The notes under the pieces were generated by a model. It saw only the letters and a list, made by a program, of their open reading frames with translations. It made no database searches and was not told where the DNA came from. From Olivibacter jilunii (lineage in GTDB: Bacteria; Bacteroidota; Bacteroidia; Sphingobacteriales; Sphingobacteriaceae), in contig NZ_LR027851.1 of assembly GCF_900607235.1 (NCBI RefSeq), positions 62,001 through 126,000 on the forward strand: a DNA stretch of 64,000 nt. Direction: 5' to 3'. Position numbers and translations under genes: made by a program. Positions 13,459 to 22,576 of this stretch are shown here, piece after piece. Within the stretch, counting starts at the first letter, position 1. Each line of letters opens with the position of its first letter.

Positions 13459-14046
13459 CTATTTATGATGCCGTTTAGCTAAATTCTCAGCAATACGTAC
13501 CAAGGGGATGTTTTTTTCTCTCAATAGAACAAGTAAATGAAAGATCAGGTCTGATGATTCGTTAATAAAATCCATGTCTGATTCTTTCAGTGCAGCTATA
13601 ACGGTCTCTATAGCTTCTTCTCCCACTTTTTGCGCGATTTTATTAATGCCTTTGTCCCGCAGTTTGTTTACATAAGAACTTTCATTAGGATTGATAAAGC
13701 GATCATCAATAATTTTTTCTAATTGAAAAATGAAATTTTGATTAAAATCAGTTTTGAAGCAACTTCTAGATCCGGTATGACAGGTTGGGCCTTTTGGATT
13801 TACCTTAATTAGTAGGGTGTCGTTATCACAATCAACAGACGCTTCAACCAGCTCTAAGTAATTACCGCTTTCTTCTCCCTTTGTCCATAAGCGATTCTTA
13901 GTGCGTGAGAAGAAGGTGACACGTTGTTCTTTTTGCGTCTTTTCCCATGCCTCTTCATTCATGTAACCCAGCATAAGTACTTCTAATGTTTGATAATCCT
14001 GAATGACAGCGGGAACTAAGCCTGCTCCTTTATTAAAATCTAGCAT
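13459..14046 (-). CDS. hisIE: Bifunctional phosphoribosyl-AMP cyclohydrolase / phosphoribosyl-ATP diphosphatase
   Basis: 195 residues. The N-terminal HisI domain (about 1-105) carries 'VLMLGYMNEEAWEKT', 'FFSRTKNRLWTKGEESGN', 'VDCDNDTLLIKVNPKGPTCHTG' with its zinc/magnesium Asp and Cys residues. The C-terminal HisE domain (about 110-195) is an all-helical MazG-like part with 'KVGEEAIETVIAAL' and 'SDLIFHLLVLL'. It carries out steps 2 and 3 of histidine synthesis. It lies 17 bp behind hisF in the operon. Confidence 0.95.
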   Translation of the reverse strand: MLDFNKGAGLVPAVIQDYQTLEVLMLGYMNEEAWEKTQKEQRVTFFSRTKNRLWTKGEESGNYLELVEASVDCDNDTLLIKVNPKGPTCHTGSRSCFKTDFNQNFIFQLEKIIDDRFINPNESSYVNKLRDKGINKIAQKVGEEAIETVIAALKESDMDFINESSDLIFHLLVLLREKNIPLVRIAENLAKRHHK

Positions 14047-14063
14047 TTTTAAAATAAATTACA

Positions 14064-14852
14064 TTAACGGACTTCTATACCATGTGCTCTCAGTGTTCCC
14101 TTCAGGTCAGGTATACGAATTTCCCCATAGTGAAAAACGGAAGCTGCTAAAGCAGCATCTACCTGTGTTTCTAAGAAAACATCTACAAAATGTTGTTGAT
14201 TGCCCGCTCCGCCGGAGGCAATAATAGGTATACTTAAGCTTTGATTAACAGTACGGAGTAACTTGCAATCAAAACCATTCTTTGTTCCGTCATGGTCCAT
14301 GGATGTGAGTAATATTTCGCCGGCGCCTCTGCTTTCGGCCTCCTTTATCCACTCTTCTGTAAGGATATCCGTTTTTATCCGTCCACCATTGAGGTGAACA
14401 TAATTTTTGCCGTCAACGTACTTCGTGTCAATAGCGACAACAACGAATTGAATACCAAATGCATCGGCCAGTTCGTCGATTAATCCTGGATTTCTAACAG
14501 CTGCAGAATTAATGGAAATTTTATCTGCACCGGAATTTAATAATATATCTGCATCGCCAATCTCATGTATGCCTCCGCCAATGGTAAAAGGAATATTCAC
14601 ATTTCTCGCAACGGCTTTGACCATATCAATCGTTGTCTTGCGTTTTTCGTGCGTGGCGGTTATATCCAGAAAAACCAATTCATCAGCATCTTGCTTGGAA
14701 TATTGCCATGCCAGCTCAACTGGATCACCCGCATCGCGTAAATCGACAAAGTTAACTCCTTTAACGGTTCTCCCATCCTTTACATCCAAGCAAGGGATAA
14801 TACGCTTAGCAACGCCCGTATTTAAAAATTGATCAGTGAGCGAAGGTTCCAT
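14064..14852 (-). CDS. hisF: Imidazole glycerol phosphate synthase, cyclase subunit
   Basis: 262 residues, a TIM barrel with '[20 protein letters not shown]', 'DITATHEKR', 'PFTIGGGI', 'VVAIDTK' and 'IASGGAG'. Together with HisH it makes IGP and AICAR from PRFAR. The start used here overlaps the end of hisA by 31 bp; the first ten residues before AKRIIPC are longer than usual, but there is no better in-frame start codon, so overlap and coupling with hisA are likely real. Confidence 0.95.
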
Positions 14853-15571
14853 TCTTTTATCTCTTCAATACTTATTCTATTTTCGTATATGGCTTTTCCA
14901 ACAACACATGCTTCTATCCGAAGTTCGTCGAGGGCTTTGATATCATCCATGGAACTGATACCACCGGAGGCAATTAATTTGATGATAGGGGAGTGATCTA
15001 AAAGTTTTTTATACAAATCAATACCCGCTCCGCCAAGTTTTCCGTCCTTGTTGATGTCTGTGCAAAGGAACCTGAAGAAGCCCAAACCAAGGCATCTGTC
15101 TATATAATCGATTAACTTTAAAGGTGAACTTTCCATCCAGCCCGAATATTTAATGACCTCGTCTAGTACGTCTATAGCAACTACAATGTGATCGGAACAT
15201 TTGATTCCATTACAGTAAAGGTGGCTAAGCTCATCTAAAAACTCCGGATTGGTGATGGCTTGCGTTCCAACGATGACGCGATGTATACCGGAGTCAATCA
15301 ATTCCTTAACCTTATCGATGCTTCTGACCCCACCGCCGTACTGAACCTTCATGTCGGTTTTTTTGATAATGTCAAAAAGATACTGTTGATTGCTGAAATC
15401 GCCTTTTGCGCCATTGAGATCAATAATATGTACAAATTCGGTGCCGTTCGACTGATATTTTTCTATCATCTCCTCCAAACTGATATCATAGGTGGTAATA
15501 TCATCGTATTTACCTTCTCGTAAACGAACTACCTTTTTATCCAATATATCGATTGCTGGAATAATATACAT
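14822..15571 (-). CDS. hisA: ProFAR isomerase (phosphoribosylformimino-AICAR-P isomerase)
   Basis: 249 residues, TIM barrel homologous to HisF: '[27 protein letters not shown]', '[13 protein letters not shown]', 'VVAIDVLDE', '[13 protein letters not shown]'. It opens the ring of ProFAR in step 4. Twelve bp separate it from hisH, and its end overlaps hisF. It is one of the closely packed HAF-IE genes that form the tight half of the operon. Confidence 0.95.
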
Positions 15572-15583
15572 GACTTTTCTTGA

Positions 15584-16174
15584 TTAGATTGCACAAAAAT
15601 TTTTTAATAATTGTTCTCCTGCTTCTCCTGATTTTTCAGGGTGAAATTGGACTCCATAAAAATTGTTAAACTGTATAGCTGAAGAAAACTTAAGACCATA
15701 CGTTGTATAAGCGAGTGTAAAAGTAGGATTATATTCGATAAAATAAGAGTGGACAAAATAAAAATATGCATCAGCCGGTATTCCTTTAAAAAGGTTATTA
15801 TCATAACTTGAATTCACGCTATTCCATCCCATGTGAGGAACTTTATAGGGGATCTTATGAGCAAAATGCAGTGTGTCAATATCCATAATATGCAATAATT
15901 GAGCATTTCCTTCTTCCGAATGGCGCGTCAGTAATTGCATGCCGACGCAAATTCCCAACACCGGTTTTGTCAGAGCCTTTATCGAATTAACTAGTCCAGA
16001 TGTTTGCAGTTTCTGCATGGCGGCTCCTGCATGGCCAACGCCGGGTATAATAATGTGACTATATCGATCCATATTATCTCCTGCATTAACCATACCATAT
16101 TTTAAGCTCAGCCGATCGAGCGCGGCAGTCAACGAAAAAATGTTGCCCGCACCGTAGTTTATTATTCCAATCAT
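15584..16174 (-). CDS. hisH: Imidazole glycerol phosphate synthase, glutamine amidotransferase subunit
   Basis: 196 residues. Class-I glutaminase that feeds ammonia to HisF. The nucleophile Cys is in LGICVGMQLL, and the His/Glu pair is in 'GVQFHPEKSGEAG'. The N-terminal 'IGIINYGAGNIFSL' and 'IIPGVGHAGAAM' blocks are typical. Note GVGHAGAA where most homologues have GVGxFxxA. A 108-bp spacer with no gene separates it from hisB. Confidence 0.95.
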   Translation of the reverse strand: MIGIINYGAGNIFSLTAALDRLSLKYGMVNAGDNMDRYSHIIIPGVGHAGAAMQKLQTSGLVNSIKALTKPVLGICVGMQLLTRHSEEGNAQLLHIMDIDTLHFAHKIPYKVPHMGWNSVNSSYDNNLFKGIPADAYFYFVHSYFIEYNPTFTLAYTTYGLKFSSAIQFNNFYGVQFHPEKSGEAGEQLLKNFCAI

Positions 16175-16282
16175 GTTTAGCTATTCGCCTTTAGCACACA
16201 GCTATCAGCTCTAAAAAATTACCAATATTATTACTATCTACTCAAACCGCTACATTCATCCTACACCTTACACCCTAAACCT

Positions 16283-17440
16283 TTAAAGCACACCTTTCGT
16301 ACTGGGAAGTTCCATTCGGTCGGGATCCCTTTTTACCGCCATTTTAATCGCTTTGGCAAAAGCCTTAAAAATTGCCTCGATTTTGTGATGCTCATTTTGT
16401 CCTTCTGCTTTAATGTTCAGATTACATTTAGCTGCATCTGAAAAGGATTTAAAAAAGTGGATAAACATTTCTGTAGGCATTTCACCTATTTTTTCGCGTT
16501 TAAATTCCGCCTCCCATACCAGCCAGTTCCTTCCCCCGAAATCCAAAGCTACTTGTGCCAGGCAATCATCCATCGGTAAACAAAAACCATATCGTTCGAT
16601 GCCTCTTTTATCACCCAGTGCTTTCAATATCGTTTCTCCCAATGCCAAGGCAGTATCTTCGATTGTGTGATGCTCGTCGATGTGAAGATCGCCCTTTGTC
16701 TTTATCGTCAAGTCCATGCTACCGTGGCGAGCTAATTGATCAAGCATATGATCGAAAAATGGAAGACCTGTTTCGATTGCCGCTTGACCTTTCCCATCCA
16801 AGTTGACAGAGACGTAAATATCTGTTTCATTCGTTGTTCGTTGATGCACCGCCGCGCGATTGCCAACTTTCAAAAATTCATACACTTTTTTGAACTCGGT
16901 TGTTTCTAAGGCAATAACACCGGCATCAACGAGAAGGTTTTCATTTGCTCCAAGTGCGTCGTTATTTCGTAACCAGATAGCCTTTGCACCTAGATTCTGT
17001 GCAAGACGCACATCGTTAATCCGATCACCTATCACATAGGAGTTCGCTAAATCATACTTTTCGGTATCAAAATACTCTTTTAGCATACCGATGCCTGGTT
17101 TTCTGGTTTCCGCTTGTTCATGTGGAAAAGTACGATCGATGTGCTCTTTGCTAAAGTGCACGCCTTCACCGGCGAAAGTTTCCATAATGAAGCGGTGTAC
17201 AGGCCAAAAATTGGCTTCAGGATGCGAATCGGTACCTAAACCGTCTTGATTAGTCACTAAAACTAATTCATAGTCCAATTCTTTGGCTATCCGGGGTAAG
17301 TATTGTAATGCCCCAGGATAAAATTTAAGTTTCTCAAAGGAATCTATCTGTTCATCTTCCGGTTCAATAATCAATGTTCCATCGCGGTCGATGAACAAAA
17401 TTCGCTTTTTATTATTGCTACTAGCCATATTATCGATCAT
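16283..17440 (-). CDS. hisB: Bifunctional histidinol-phosphatase / imidazoleglycerol-phosphate dehydratase
   Basis: 385 residues. The HAD-type phosphatase domain is N-terminal (about 1-180; '[17 protein letters not shown]', '[25 protein letters not shown]'). The dehydratase domain is C-terminal (about 200-385; '[28 protein letters not shown]', '[15 protein letters not shown]', '[16 protein letters not shown]') with its manganese-binding histidines. It covers two separate steps of histidine synthesis. An internal ATG four codons in (17428) is an alternative start. The fusion resembles the enterobacterial HisB and is common in Bacteroidota. Confidence 0.95.
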
Positions 17441-17513
17441 TCTTTACAATCTAGCCAAGCACGCCACCGTTGTGTTTACTTAGCTTTCTGTTTTATTATC
17501 CAAAAGTACTATT

Positions 17514-18578
17514 CTACTGACCATTAACCAACGGATACGTGCGAAGTGCATGTAAGAGTTGCTGGTTTTCTTCGGGAGTGCCTATAGTTATACGTAGGCA
17601 TCCTTCGCATAATATGACCGACGATCGGTCGCGTACAATAATGCCTAGTTCAACAAGGTATTTGTAAATTTCCCGAGGGGTAGTCATTTTTACCAAGATG
17701 AAATTTGCCTCCGAAGGATAGATGTATTGTATAAGCGGGAGCGTTGAGAGGTCTTTAACTAATTTCTCTCTTTCTCTGACGGTAGTCTTTATCCATGTGT
17801 TGATTTCGTCTACATTTTCAAGAGCTTGTATTGCAAGTGTTTGAGACGCTTCGTTAATGTTGTATGGCGGCTTTATTTTGTTAAGCACATCAATGATATC
17901 GCGGGCCGCAAAAGCCATTCCTATTCTCAATCCCGCCAATCCCCAAGCCTTAGAAAGCGTTTGCAGCACTACCAGGTTATTATATTCTGTCAACTCTTGT
18001 ATAAAAGATCGTTGTTTGGCGAAGTTTATATAGGCTTCATCTACCACTACTATACCGTTGAAGTTATTCAACAGCGTTTCTATATCTGCTCTATTGATCG
18101 AATTCCCGGTAGGATTGTTGGGCGAACAGATGAAAATAATTTTACTGTTTTCATCGATCGTCTCAGCTATGCTATTAAGGTCTAACTGGAATTCTGTCGT
18201 CAGCGGGACGCGCTTAATTAAAACATCATTGATATTGGCGGATACTTCATACATTCCATAGGTTGGCGGAACGATAATAATATTGTCTATACCCGGGCGA
18301 CAAAAGGCCCTCAATAGAAGGTCAATTGCTTCGTCGCTTCCATTGCCAACAAAAATATGTTCCGTAGGAACACCTTTGATTTGGCGGACTTTTTCCTTTA
18401 AGTTTAATTGTAGTGGGTCCGGATATCGGTTGTAATTTACAGGTAAAGGTGAACCAAATGCATTTTCATTTGCATCTAATAAGATAGAAGCTTCTCCTTT
18501 AAATTCGTCACGAGCGGAAGAATAAGGTGTAAGCTTTCTAATATTGTCCCTTAACAGGTTTTGAATGTTGATGGTCAT
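17514..18578 (-). CDS. hisC: Histidinol-phosphate aminotransferase
   Basis: 354 residues, a PLP-dependent fold-I aminotransferase. 'LDANENAFGSP', 'RYPDPLQLNLKEKV', 'VGNGSDEAIDLLLRAF', 'CSPNNPTGN', 'VVDEAYINF' and the PLP-lysine segment 'LQTLSKAWGLAGLRIGMAFA' are all present. It transfers an amino group from glutamate to imidazole-acetol phosphate. The 73-bp gap to hisB contains no gene; the 59-bp gap to hisD contains a hairpin. Confidence 0.95.
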   Translation of the reverse strand: MTINIQNLLRDNIRKLTPYSSARDEFKGEASILLDANENAFGSPLPVNYNRYPDPLQLNLKEKVRQIKGVPTEHIFVGNGSDEAIDLLLRAFCRPGIDNIIIVPPTYGMYEVSANINDVLIKRVPLTTEFQLDLNSIAETIDENSKIIFICSPNNPTGNSINRADIETLLNNFNGIVVVDEAYINFAKQRSFIQELTEYNNLVVLQTLSKAWGLAGLRIGMAFAARDIIDVLNKIKPPYNINEASQTLAIQALENVDEINTWIKTTVREREKLVKDLSTLPLIQYIYPSEANFILVKMTTPREIYKYLVELGIIVRDRSSVILCEGCLRITIGTPEENQQLLHALRTYPLVNGQ

Positions 18579-18611
18579 TTTTAAAGTAAAAAGTAAAATG
18601 TAAAAAGCTTG

Positions 18612-18627
18612 CCACCCGTAGGGGTGG
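18612..18627 (-). other. Intercistronic hairpin between hisD and hisC
   Basis: CCACCC-CTAC-GGGTGG read on the minus strand, a 6-bp GC-only stem in the middle of an AT-rich spacer. It is followed by GCAAGCTTTTTAC, so it is at most a weak terminator; it may instead be an RNA processing or stability element that sets different levels for hisG-hisD and the later genes. Confidence 0.5.
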
Positions 18628-18637
18628 TAAAAAAATG

Positions 18638-19936
18638 CTACTCAGCTTTATGCCTTAATCTAACGCTTACAGCGTTTTTATGTGCGTGTAACCCTTCAAG
18701 TTCTGCCAATATTTCAACGGTAGGACCTAATTGGTTTATTCCAATTGGCGTAATGTGTTGAAAAGTTATTTTTTTAATAAAAGAATCTACTGACACACCG
18801 GAATAAGCCTTTGCATAAGCACTTGTCGGTAACGTGTGATTCGTTCCTGAAGCATAATCTCCCACGCTTTCAGGTGTTAAGTGCCCTAAGAAAACCGATC
18901 CGGCATTGATTATTTTGTTTATAATAGATTGCCAGTCATCGAGCGCAAGAATTAAGTGCTCCGGGGCATAGGCATTGCTGAACGACATCGCTTGTGTTAA
19001 ATCACTGCAAAGCACGGCATAGGAATGAGCGATGGCCGCTTTAGCTATTTCAACTCTTGGGAGCGCTTCTACCTGTTTAGCTAGCTCTTGATTAACTTGT
19101 TCTATAAGGGATTCACTATCACTAACCAAGATAGCTTGACTATCTTTTCCATGTTCAGCCTGTGCAAGCAGATCGGCTGCTACATAAATAGGATTGCTCG
19201 TCTTATCAGCTATAATGAGTACTTCCGAGGGGCCGGCAGGCATGTCGATCGCCGTATTCGTGGTAGCTTGTACAATGGTTTTAGCCTTTGTTACAAATTG
19301 GTTGCCCGGACCGAAAATCTTGTCAACTTTCGGAATGGTTGCAGTGCCATATGCCATTGCGGCGATCGCTTGGGCACCGCCGACCAGATAAATCCGTTTA
19401 ATTTTTAATAAATATGCACAATAAGCAATATAGCCATTTATAAGTCCACTGGCTTGTGGGGGGCAACATACGACAATTTCTTTGCATCCCGCTATTCGAG
19501 CAGGGACACCAAGCATAAGAAAAGTACTTGGAAGTACAGCCGACCCACCGGGAACGTAAAGTCCTACACGCTCAATGGGGCGCGCCTCCCTCCAACACGT
19601 GACGCCTTGCATCGTGTCGATCTTCTTTTCCTTACGTAATTGATTTTGATGAAATTTGTAAATGTTGTTAAAAGCGATTTCCAACGCCCTTTGCTGGTCT
19701 CTACCAATGCTGGTTGCTAGTAACTGAATATCGTCCTCTTCAATATACAAACGATCCAGTTTAACTTTGTCGAACCGTTCCGTAAAGTCAAACAGTGCGG
19801 CATCGCCCTTCTGTCGGACATTTTGGATAATATTGTCAACCGTTTCCTGAATGGTATGAGCCGGATCTGTATTGCGAATAATCAGCTGGCTTAACGCATC
19901 AGGGGAAAGCTCCTTATAGTTATATGTGTTTAACAT
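18638..19936 (-). CDS. hisD: Histidinol dehydrogenase
   Basis: 432 residues. Performs the last two oxidations from histidinol to histidine using NAD and a zinc ion. Seen are '[28 protein letters not shown]', '[14 protein letters not shown]', '[17 protein letters not shown]', 'YAPEHLIL' and '[24 protein letters not shown]'. The length is normal for the family. It is second in the operon, 131 bp behind hisG; that spacer holds no gene. Confidence 0.96.
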
Positions 19937-20067: not shown

Positions 20068-20919
20068 TTACATAATAATCTTTTCAATGGGCATGACAAC
20101 AATTCCCTGAGCACCGGCGGCTTTGAGTTTATTTATTTTTTCCCAAAAGTCACGCTCTTGTATGGCCGTATGGACGGCTACCCAACCTTCCTCGGCAAGA
20201 GGCACCACTGTTGGACTTTTTACGCCGGGGAGCAGGTCTACTATTATTTGAAGATTTTCTCTTTTCACATTAAGTACAACGTATTTAGTTTCCTTTGCCT
20301 TCAAAACGGATTGAATTCGCTGCATTAGCTCTTTCACAGCTTCTTCTTCTTCGATTCCGTTTTTGCCGATTAGGATGGCCTCCGATGACATAACGTCAGC
20401 AAAAGGTTTTAAGCCATTACTTTTTAAGGTGCCTCCTGTGGAAACGATATCGCATATAGCATCACTTAATCCTAATCCCGGCGAAATTTCAACTGATCCG
20501 GATATGGTGCGAATCGTTGCATTAATTTGATTGTCAGAAAGGTATTTTTTTAGGATGTTGGGGTAAGAAGTGGCGATGGCTCGCCCCTCTAAATCATTTA
20601 TTTGTACTAATTCGCTTTCATTTGGTATGGCAATCTTCAAAGTACATTTTCCAAAACCAAGGCGTTGCAAAAAATGTACGTTGACTCCAGTTTCACTAAT
20701 CACATTTTCACCGACAATACCTAAATCGGCGATCCCATCTTGAACGTACTCCGGTATATCATCATCCCGTAAGAAAAGAATTTCCAGTGGAAAATTGGAT
20801 ACGGAGGATATGAGTGAGCTTTTATAATTTTCGAAAGTTAGGCCACAGTTTTTTAATAACTCTACAGATTTTTCGTTTAATCTACCCGACTTTTGGATAG
20901 CTATTTTTAAGGATGACAT
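20068..20919 (-). CDS. hisG: ATP phosphoribosyltransferase, long form
   Basis: 283 residues. First enzyme of histidine synthesis, joining ATP and PRPP. 'LKIAIQKSGRLNEKSVELLKNCGL', 'IPEYVQDGIADLGIVGENV' and the PRPP-loop segment 'DAICDIVSTGGTLKSNGL' are visible. The length includes the C-terminal PII-like regulatory domain (about residues 210-283), so this is the long form that does not need HisZ and is usually inhibited by histidine. It is the first gene of the operon and is preceded by a promoter and a His-rich leader peptide. Confidence 0.95.
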   Translation of the reverse strand: MSSLKIAIQKSGRLNEKSVELLKNCGLTFENYKSSLISSVSNFPLEILFLRDDDIPEYVQDGIADLGIVGENVISETGVNVHFLQRLGFGKCTLKIAIPNESELVQINDLEGRAIATSYPNILKKYLSDNQINATIRTISGSVEISPGLGLSDAICDIVSTGGTLKSNGLKPFADVMSSEAILIGKNGIEEEEAVKELMQRIQSVLKAKETKYVVLNVKRENLQIIVDLLPGVKSPTVVPLAEEGWVAVHTAIQERDFWEKINKLKAAGAQGIVVMPIEKIIM

Positions 20920-21019
20920 GGATAGTATAATATTTTATTACATGTATCAAAGCACATGCAGATGAATATAAAAAAGTAAATGAATCGGGGTTTAACTGCT
21001 TCACGTAGAAACATACTTA

Positions 21020-21079
21020 TTACATATCGCCACAAGGGCGATGATGGAAATGTACGTGATGTGTGAAGACTTTTAACAT
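21020..21079 (-). CDS. hisL: Histidine operon leader peptide
   Basis: A 19-codon open frame, MLKVFTHHVHFHHRPCGDM then TAA, with five histidines in seven residues (positions 7, 8, 10, 12 and 13). It lies 31 nt after the expected transcription start and 100 nt before hisG. The His codons overlap a foldable region: TACGTGA (21053-21059, codons 7-9) can pair with TCACGTA (21001-21007), enclosing a smaller hairpin ATCGCC/GGCGAT (21026-21042). Ribosome stalling at the His codons would open the outer pairing. A T-rich stretch (ACTTTTTTATA on the minus strand) follows, but I see no strong GC-rich terminator, so the control may be weak, Rho-dependent or translational. By analogy with enterobacterial hisL, it should sense charged tRNA-His. 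Confidence 0.82.
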   Translation of the reverse strand: MLKVFTHHVHFHHRPCGDM

Positions 21080-21116
21080 TTTCTTATTCTGAACTTCTTT
21101 GTTAAGAAGAATGTTG

Positions 21117-21147
21117 CAAATATAGGATTCAATTTTGTTTTTGCAAA
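21117..21147 (-). promoter_or_regulatory. Promoter of the histidine operon
   Basis: On the minus strand, TTTG (21144-21147), a 19-bp spacer and TATATTTG (21117-21124) form a full Bacteroidota promoter with the same spacing as the tRNA-Gln promoter at 6721. The start would be near 21110, about 30 nt before the leader peptide ATG. A small hairpin CTTCTT-AACA-AAGAAG lies in the first part of the transcript. Confidence 0.82.
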
Positions 21148-21310
21148 TAAAAGGTGAATTTTATTAGCAAAAATTCATGTGTAACAAAAACGATAGTACT
21201 TCACTTTTTAGGTTTTTTACTTATCTTCACATTAAATATGGGATGAATGCCTCATGTTATGAGACATTGACCTTGCCTATTAGTTTGGTCCCATAGCCTA
21301 TTATAAGCAA

Positions 21311-22576
21311 ATGAAAAGAAAATTAACTTTTCTGGAAGGAACTTTATATGCTGGCGGTGCCATTGCCAATAATGTCGTTACGACGGTTACGATTCGTGGA
21401 AGCTTTAGTAAGGCATGTTTACAGGCGGCTCTCGATAAAGTACAACGGAGACATCCTCTTTTAAATGTTCACATTGAGCAAGATGTTAGCAGTGCGCCCT
21501 ATTTTGTCCAAGCTACAATAAAAAAAGATATTCAAGTCCGAGTTATTGACCGTCTTACCGACGACGATTGGAAAAGCGAATTCGTGCGGGAATGTCTCGC
21601 CCCCTTCGATGCCACTGATAGCTTACTTTTGCGTGTTGTGTGGATTAGAGGCGAGAATCTTTCAGACTTAATGTTTGTTGGCCATCATTGTATTTGTGAT
21701 GGCAGATCCGTGCTGAATTTAATGAATGAGACCCTCTGTGTATTAGGGAATCCTGCAATGGATATTGGTAGCTATGACCAATTTTCGTCTGTGCTCGATT
21801 TTATCCCGGAGCATGTAAAACGTAATAAGGGTAACAGGTTTATCGCCAAATGCCTTCCAATGATAGTAAAAACGGCATTACGCTTTGCCGCCTTTAAGAA
21901 AGAAATCAATCGATGTAACCCCTATTTTATTCATTGGAATTTAAGCAAAGAAGAATCAAAAGCGATTCTTGAACAATGCAAGTTTAAAGGACTTTCTATC
22001 CACACCTTTTTGAGCGCCGTATTTTTGACAGCTTATGGTGATGTTGATGGCAGCAGGCGATGTGTAAAACTCTTTTGTTCGATCGATATGAGAAGATTTA
22101 TTAAGGAAGTAAAAAATGACATGCTCTTTGCTTTTCCTGCAATGGTTCCCCTACATCTGAAAAAAAGTTCCGCTCGCAACATTTGGCAACAAGCGGAGAT
22201 GTTAAAGGTTGCATTAGCAAAACGTATGGAAAAGTTAACGGTTTATGATACGTTGGTTTTTAGTGAAGGGCTCACGCCGTTAATACCGCAAATAACCAAC
22301 TATGCAAAGAAAGACAAAGGGACGCACGCCTTTACTTTTTCAAATATGGGACGTGTTCAATTGGAGGAGCACTACGGCGCACTTGCCATTGAAAACTTGT
22401 ACGCGCCAGCTAGTCTCTTTGCTTTGGGTAATCCTTCTACCTTATCCATTACCAGCTTTAAGGGACAGATCGATTTTATGTTTACATCAGACGAAAACTT
22501 CCTGTCTTATCCTGTGGCACGAGCCTTTCAAACGCGCGCGCTTGAAATTATTCGGACTTCTCTTTCGACCAAGTGA
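21311..22576 (+). CDS. Free-standing condensation-type acyltransferase (HHxxxDG, PapA/alcohol acetyltransferase-like)
   Basis: 421 residues. The acyltransferase motif HHCICDG occupies residues 125-131 (His125, His126, Asp130), the catalytic HHxxxDG signature of the chloramphenicol-acetyltransferase-like superfamily. The N-terminal 'FSKACLQAALDKVQRRHPLLNV' is typical of condensation and PapA proteins, and 'FTFSNMGRV' near residue 345 is near the place of the usual second structural motif. There is no carrier protein, NRPS or PKS gene nearby, so the substrate is probably a small alcohol, amine or lipid. It faces away from the his operon. The following GH31 gene is 153 bp downstream. Confidence 0.78.
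   Translation: MKRKLTFLEGTLYAGGAIANNVVTTVTIRGSFSKACLQAALDKVQRRHPLLNVHIEQDVSSAPYFVQATIKKDIQVRVIDRLTDDDWKSEFVRECLAPFDATDSLLLRVVWIRGENLSDLMFVGHHCICDGRSVLNLMNETLCVLGNPAMDIGSYDQFSSVLDFIPEHVKRNKGNRFIAKCLPMIVKTALRFAAFKKEINRCNPYFIHWNLSKEESKAILEQCKFKGLSIHTFLSAVFLTAYGDVDGSRRCVKLFCSIDMRRFIKEVKNDMLFAFPAMVPLHLKKSSARNIWQQAEMLKVALAKRMEKLTVYDTLVFSEGLTPLIPQITNYAKKDKGTHAFTFSNMGRVQLEEHYGALAIENLYAPASLFALGNPSTLSITSFKGQIDFMFTSDENFLSYPVARAFQTRALEIIRTSLSTK

Follow-up and report, generated by a model that had tools for sequence, protein, structure and literature searches.

The his operon of Olivibacter jilunii is preceded by a short frame of clustered His codons that, judged by its sequence, is an attenuator of the leader-peptide kind. 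The interpretation favored here, at about an even chance, is that of a histidine-responsive leader-peptide attenuator whose output has been switched from transcription termination to the translation start of hisG. A fuller account for the Sphingobacteriaceae, which falls just short of an even chance and is offered tentatively, would be that the sensor of the his attenuator has been kept and its terminator lost, that the first nucleotides of the mRNA mask the hisG start, and that a weak UUG or GUG start codon has been taken, giving a leader-peptide translational attenuator that operates without a Shine-Dalgarno sequence.

The his leader and its conservation

In the window (the whole stretch of 64,000 nucleotides that was analyzed) the his operon lies on the minus strand in the order hisG-D-C-B-H-A-F-IE. 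The first gene, hisG (20068–20919), has an ATG start at 20919 and scores above the cut-offs of TIGR00070 and TIGR03455, and the remaining genes hisD, hisC, hisB, hisH, hisA, hisF and hisIE occupy 13459–19936 of the same strand. In the profile scan hisG, hisD, hisC, hisB and hisH exceeded their NCBIfam cut-offs and the best match of hisA fell slightly under its own; hisF and hisIE were assigned by reading frames, without profile scan. The gene divergent from hisG (21311–22576) has weak matches only, to PapA5-type acyltransferase and peptide-synthetase families.

Upstream of hisG the sequence reads as a promoter (21117–21147, minus strand) composed of TTTG at 21147–21144, a 19-nt spacer and TATATTTG at 21124–21117, followed by the 19-codon leader frame MLKVFTHHVHFHHRPCGDM (21020–21079, minus strand; ATG at 21079–21077, stop ending at 21020). 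Five His codons fall within seven residues of this frame (codons 7, 8, 10, 12 and 13), and the distance from its stop to the hisG ATG is 100 nt; the preliminary description of this DNA, which had placed a His-rich frame behind a promoter and 100 nt before hisG, is confirmed in these points. For the primary sigma factor of Flavobacterium psychrophilum the published consensus is TAnnTTTG (PMC9723704). At least five His in eight residues occur in 1 of the 801 ATG frames of 8–40 aa on the two strands of the window, and the same density occurs in none of 10,825 frames from ten shuffled copies of it.

The window HisG shares 93% identity with the HisG of Olivibacter sp. XZL3, also of the Sphingobacteriaceae, and hisG is present in 133 of the 151 genomes of this family that were searched. 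(Fourteen of the 18 genomes with no hisG match are small genomes, 1.0–2.4 Mb, of the genera labelled g6, g11 and g23.) The His-rich frame is conserved in these relatives, the check that the preliminary description had proposed: a short ATG frame with at least four His in eight residues precedes hisG in 87 of the 91 family upstream regions read, and a His leader is found at 79 of 80 named loci, a set that overlaps the first. Both counts support the leader-peptide role for the his operon that had been proposed. The four upstream regions that fail comprise one leader frame with three His (L089), one unrelated frame with three (L048) and two with no frame (L075 and L082).

Of the 87 family leaders, 72 have the motif TATATTTG 15–60 nt before their ATG, versus 3 of 819 background windows of 45 nt. 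The distance from leader stop to hisG start codon is 50–90 nt in 71 of the 87, more in 15 and less in one (median 69). Within the window's genus (five sequences) the sensor part is nearly invariant. Six of the nine upstream regions of Parapedobacter (g4; L007, L011, L016, L021, L036 and L038) have 140–319 nt between leader and hisG, and in several of these six the TTGAA of the usual start persists ahead of the extra sequence, a pattern resembling a DNA insertion at the start of hisG.

Intrinsic terminators at his and at other operons

Terminators were called by a rule of our own, a stem of at least 5 pairs followed by a U-tract with an energy of -6 or better, applied from leader stop to hisG (up to 160 nt) within the family and to the last 170 nt before hisG outside it. 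Only one of the 87 family His leaders passes, and weakly (L081, -6.3 kcal/mol), and the named-locus set yields 0 of 79. The window leader has no terminator by this rule, and a promoter/terminator scan also gave none at 20780–21200; the latter zero is weak alone, because the phe-type terminator of the window's genome, plain in the sequence, went undetected in the same scan, whereas our rule recovered both the trp and the phe-type controls. The preliminary description had seen no strong terminator and was right to leave the output mechanism open.

Outside the family 24 of 40 hisG upstream regions pass the rule. By family label these are all five of f2, two of f3, six of f4, three of f5, four of f15, two of f33, the single f20 and one of the two of f8; the 16 without a terminator by the rule belong to f8, f9, f10, f13, f14, f16, f17, f22, f24 and f28. 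Where the outside upstream region has at least four His in eight residues, 18 of 23 carry a terminator, and in two f4 members (L099 and L103) inspection by eye shows a possible pairing between the end of the leader and the terminator's 5' side, in the manner of a classical attenuator. In the distant family f22 (L124, L125 and L127) His leaders occur as well (HHLGHHHHGSHEHVVH and similar), and none of them passes the rule. Conserved structure in a 5' element of hisG has been described for Flavobacteriaceae, and for F. psychrophilum there are published clues that amino acid operons are attenuated through leader peptides (PMC9723704).

Other operons of the Sphingobacteriaceae behave differently from his. 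A strong terminator is present in all 24 trp upstream regions scanned (24 of the 30 loci retrieved; the six set aside were one close to the end of its contig, one containing stops and four partial matches of lower strength), 21 of which also have a frame with at least two Trp codons, and in 26 of 27 phe-type upstream regions. In the window's own genome an aromatic-rich leader, MKYTAAYWFFGYFYFSSKGRD, with a strong terminator precedes the prephenate-dehydratase gene (L165, 2192–2070, minus strand), and a Trp-rich leader, RNWWWP, also with a strong terminator, precedes trpE (L280, 3057–2930, minus strand). The use of ilvD as an additional internal control was dropped, 28 of 30 upstream regions having been scanned with no consistent leader and two terminators found. 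Since the trp and phe-type upstream regions of the family keep their terminators, the loss of the terminator is, for the operons checked, a peculiarity of his.

The leader resembles enterobacterial hisL in that a run of His codons lies in a short frame before hisG and the position of the ribosome would pick between exclusive folds; it differs from hisL in having no intrinsic terminator, a Bacteroidota-type promoter and other helices. Transcription attenuation of the hisL type, which the preliminary description had drawn on, is unsupported in the family, because 86 of the 87 leaders are without a terminator by the rule, while several other families have one, as do the trp and phe-type upstream regions of the Sphingobacteriaceae. 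In Rfam the enterobacterial attenuator is the family His_leader (RF00514); the Rfam scan of the window returned only a tRNA at gathering level, with nothing up to E 1 in 20850–21250, and the his leader has no Rfam match to a T-box riboswitch.

Predicted helices and their co-evolution

The minus-strand RNA of the window is predicted to fold into two helices that enclose a hairpin. Helix P1 pairs CUUCAC (21063–21068, leader codons 4–6) with GUGAAG (20999–21004) at pair probabilities of 0.94–0.99, and P2 pairs ACGUAC (21052–21057, codons 8–10) with GUAUGU (21011–21016), a segment past the leader stop, at 0.93–0.99, so that P1 and P2 together range from 0.93 to 0.99 in the free window RNA. The enclosed hairpin P3, AUCGCC-loop-GGCGAU (21026–21042; 21042–21037 with 21031–21026), lies at the last His codon and the leader end, is predicted at 0.93 or more in the window, and is found in the alignment fold as well. 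P1-P2-P3 is also the fold of the consensus of the genus's five sequences. A 7-bp inverted repeat (21059–21053 with 21007–21001), which the preliminary description had regarded as the helix that switches, is present but is not the preferred pairing: its predicted probability in free RNA is 0.00, and it was rejected in that role in favor of P1 and P2, which use another register. The associated proposal that a stalled ribosome alters the fold stands to the extent that a conserved fold would have one of its arms occupied by the ribosome; the helices concerned are not those of the 7-bp repeat. The stability of the window leader compared with shuffled sequences is modest (z -1.73, 13 of 200 shuffles being as good).

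An alternative small hairpin, P4 (GUUUC-UACGU-GAAGC, 20998–21012, minus strand), is predicted from alignments A1 and A3 and folds in the window RNA once the leader part is omitted. As P4 shares bases with the 3' arms of P1 and P2, the modeled folds are mutually exclusive by geometry, and P1/P2 would be blocked by a ribosome on the His codons. Of the 87 family leaders, 82 have a post-stop hairpin of at least 5 bp with a loop of 4–7 no more than 48 nt from the leader stop, and its loop is UACGU, UACGC or UACUU in 49 of these.

A further helix, P0, is predicted to join the 5' UTR and leader start (21076–21089, minus strand) to a segment toward hisG (20964–20977), with pair probabilities of 0.31–0.56 in the minimum-energy fold; there its hisG-side arm stops 44 nt short of the hisG ATG, and an extra 8-bp hairpin (20939–20960) with no U-run behind it lies between. 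Each of the five genus sequences (the window and L002–L005) folds such an additional hairpin between P0 and hisG, differing in sequence and having no U-run. Within the genus 6–27% of shuffled pairs do as well as P0, and two of the five members (L004 and L005) seem to have almost no 5' UTR for it, if the guessed promoter, a loose pattern match in some members including these two, is right. Because P0 is weak in the genus, ends 44 nt away and is separated from hisG by the extra hairpin, a translational output is best argued from sister genera and is least certain in the window.

In the family as a whole the hisG start codon (the only gene so counted) is UUG in 60, GUG in 11 and AUG in 16 of the 87 cases. 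The AUG starts belong to the window's genus (5), Parapedobacter (6), g5 (4) and g13 (1), and in most of these leader and hisG are farther apart. The best duplex between 5' UTR and tail, taken as P0, stops 0–20 nt short of the start codon in 47 of 86 cases and overlaps that codon in 18; in the other 21, mostly in g1, g4, g5 and g16, it stops at a greater distance. Among 27 named Pedobacter sequences the position of P0 ranges from 12 nt ahead of the start to 3 nt inside it.

P0 was tested by partner swapping, because its arms are not aligned by sequence. When the energies of own duplexes were compared with those of duplexes swapped between genera, P0 gave a z of -7.3 (19 genera) and P1/P2 likewise -7.3 (20 genera). 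The controls of 5' UTR with post-stop (z -0.6) and 5' UTR with leader (z -0.4) were flat; because leader with tail was mildly positive (z -2.5) and post-stop with tail went in the opposite direction (+3.3), the swap z-values are not to be read as exact. Within genera the P0 signal is seen in Pedobacter (z -3.6, p 0.0005, 27 sequences; leader-with-tail control, z -1.7) and in Mucilaginibacter-like loci (z -4.6, p 0.0001, 27 sequences), and the P1/P2 swap test in Pedobacter is not significant (z -1.4). Individually, 48 of 86 P0 duplexes have p ≤0.05 against shuffles of the arm pair.

His leaders of other Bacteroidota families share the gene, the phylum and the run of His codons with the present one, and their sensor is perhaps homologous; they differ in the terminator carried by 18 of 23 and in the P0 signal, which is missing in 23 His leaders from outside the family (z -0.9), while segments of the same size within the family give a mean z of -3.4 (range -4.7 to -1.9; one sequence per genus, 17 genera, with g1, g4 and g5 left out). 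The likewise terminator-less f22 gave no P0 signal, from 3 usable leaders only. Pairing of leader with post-stop segment co-evolves in the other families too (z -3.0), so that pairing of the P1/P2 type is not special to the Sphingobacteriaceae and P0 is.

Covariation in the aligned part was examined in 26 sequences of eight sister genera (alignment A1, 26 of 30 group sequences, with L023, L027, L079 and L086 left out). Here 92.1% of the P1-P2-P3 cells are paired, versus 26–44% with the partners slid, and among 500 partner shuffles the paired percentage was matched in none and the covariation score in one. Pairs changed on both sides (3 of 19) are not above shuffles, 65 of 500 being as high, nor is the count of pair types (446 of 500). 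Among related genera, one P2 pair is changed on both sides in 7 of the 26 sequences, and two P3 pairs are so changed in one sequence each. RNAalifold applied to the sister-genera alignments A1 and A3 (the latter with 15 of 16 sequences) predicts P3 and P4, and neither P0 nor P1/P2.

Proposed mechanism, alternatives and significance

In the mechanism proposed, expression of the operon would respond to histidine by way of leader translation. With charged His-tRNA present, the ribosome would complete the leader and depart; the P1-P2-P3 rod would then form and bring the RNA ends together, and P0 would close, hiding the hisG start region in an OFF state in which the untranslated RNA might additionally be shortened by Rho. 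With low charging of His-tRNA, the ribosome would halt on the His codons and cover the 5' arms of P1 and P2; P4 would then replace P1/P2, P0 would stay unclosed, and hisG would be translated (ON). P1-P2 is assigned to OFF and P4 to ON because a halted ribosome would cover the 5' arms of P1 and P2 and the physiology needs ON at low histidine, and hiding of the start is taken as the simplest output because no terminator follows and, in many genera, the end of P0 adjoins or covers the hisG start. How a stalled ribosome would open hisG is inferred: either the rod may be needed to join the ends in time, or the ribosome may be in the way. This coupling is the weak point of the proposal, because P0 is nested outside both folds and forms in simple folding despite the ribosome: with a ribosome placed on the His codons of the 87 leaders, the predicted openness of hisG positions -35 to +3 goes from 0.50 to 0.50–0.53, and it reaches 0.57–0.58 if the RNA up to and under the ribosome is removed as well.

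Some attenuators replace the terminator by a structure that hides the ribosome-binding site and are known as translational attenuators (PMC9413887). The proposed hiding of the first gene's start region is like these, and differs in that the start would be hidden by the mRNA's own 5' end, ahead of the leader. Terminator-less leader peptides, and a base stem at a start region, are also described in Actinobacteria: the LEU element likewise has its leader region closed by a base stem that lies where the first gene starts, its Leu codons pair with the Shine-Dalgarno box, and the region may form a pseudoknot (PMC1262725). Unlike in the LEU element, the His codons here are predicted to pair with a post-stop segment, and the base stem draws on RNA that precedes the leader. 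Among the open-licence literature matches listed there is no report of the Sphingobacteriaceae his leader, of its terminator loss or of the 5'-end helix.

Several alternatives share part of this evidence. The sensor could be the same and the output Rho-dependent termination, with Rho recruited to the post-leader stretch or to untranslated hisG after the ribosome leaves and hindered by P4 or by a stalled ribosome. The lack of an intrinsic terminator fits this, as does a CCCC-like C-patch a few nucleotides behind P1/P4 in many genera (in the window at 20990–20987), and Rho has been suggested for terminator-less cys leader peptides of Actinobacteria (PMC1262725); however, the C-patch is absent in g2, g18, g20 and g21, and Rho by itself needs no co-evolution of P0, so that Rho as the principal output appears unlikely, if still deserving of attention. 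An unusual intrinsic terminator, in which the P1-P2-P3 rod and a U-rich stretch halt RNA polymerase, would suit P1-P2-P3 as the histidine-replete structure, as OFF would require, and U-rich sequence does occur shortly behind P1/P4 in some cases (g14, CAAAACTTTTTT), with L081 even passing the terminator rule. Such a terminator is nonetheless improbable, given that the window and g15 have no U-run behind the stem and that 86 of 87 leaders fail the rule whereas the trp and phe-type upstream regions pass it.

P0 and the leader might instead serve mRNA stability, hand-over of ribosomes to hisG or the like, with histidine control being minor, and the location of P0 near the leader start and, in many genera, near the hisG start would be compatible with such roles. 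Leader frames have been proposed as a source of reinitiating ribosomes, the spacing in Bacteroidetes peaking at 11–14 nt (PMC4833913), but the spacing between leader and hisG is here well over that range in the family figures given above, and consecutive His codons at this operon would be difficult to explain without histidine sensing; these other roles are accordingly given little weight. That the His-rich frame arose by chance and has no function, for which no supporting point was found, is contradicted at the level of sequence by the conservation of frame, promoter and predicted helices together, and its probability is close to nil.

If the preferred reading, a histidine-responsive leader-peptide attenuator acting on the hisG translation start, is correct, the his leaders would provide a natural comparison of one sensor at one operon with two outputs across families of one phylum, in genomes of which the same ones retain terminator attenuators at other operons. 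Such a comparison would allow it to be asked how a regulatory RNA shifts from stopping transcription to controlling translation, and also how a start site may be masked in a phylum, the Bacteroidota, that has been described as not relying on Shine-Dalgarno pairing (PMC9723704). It further suggests that searches for attenuators based on terminators would miss a class of this kind.
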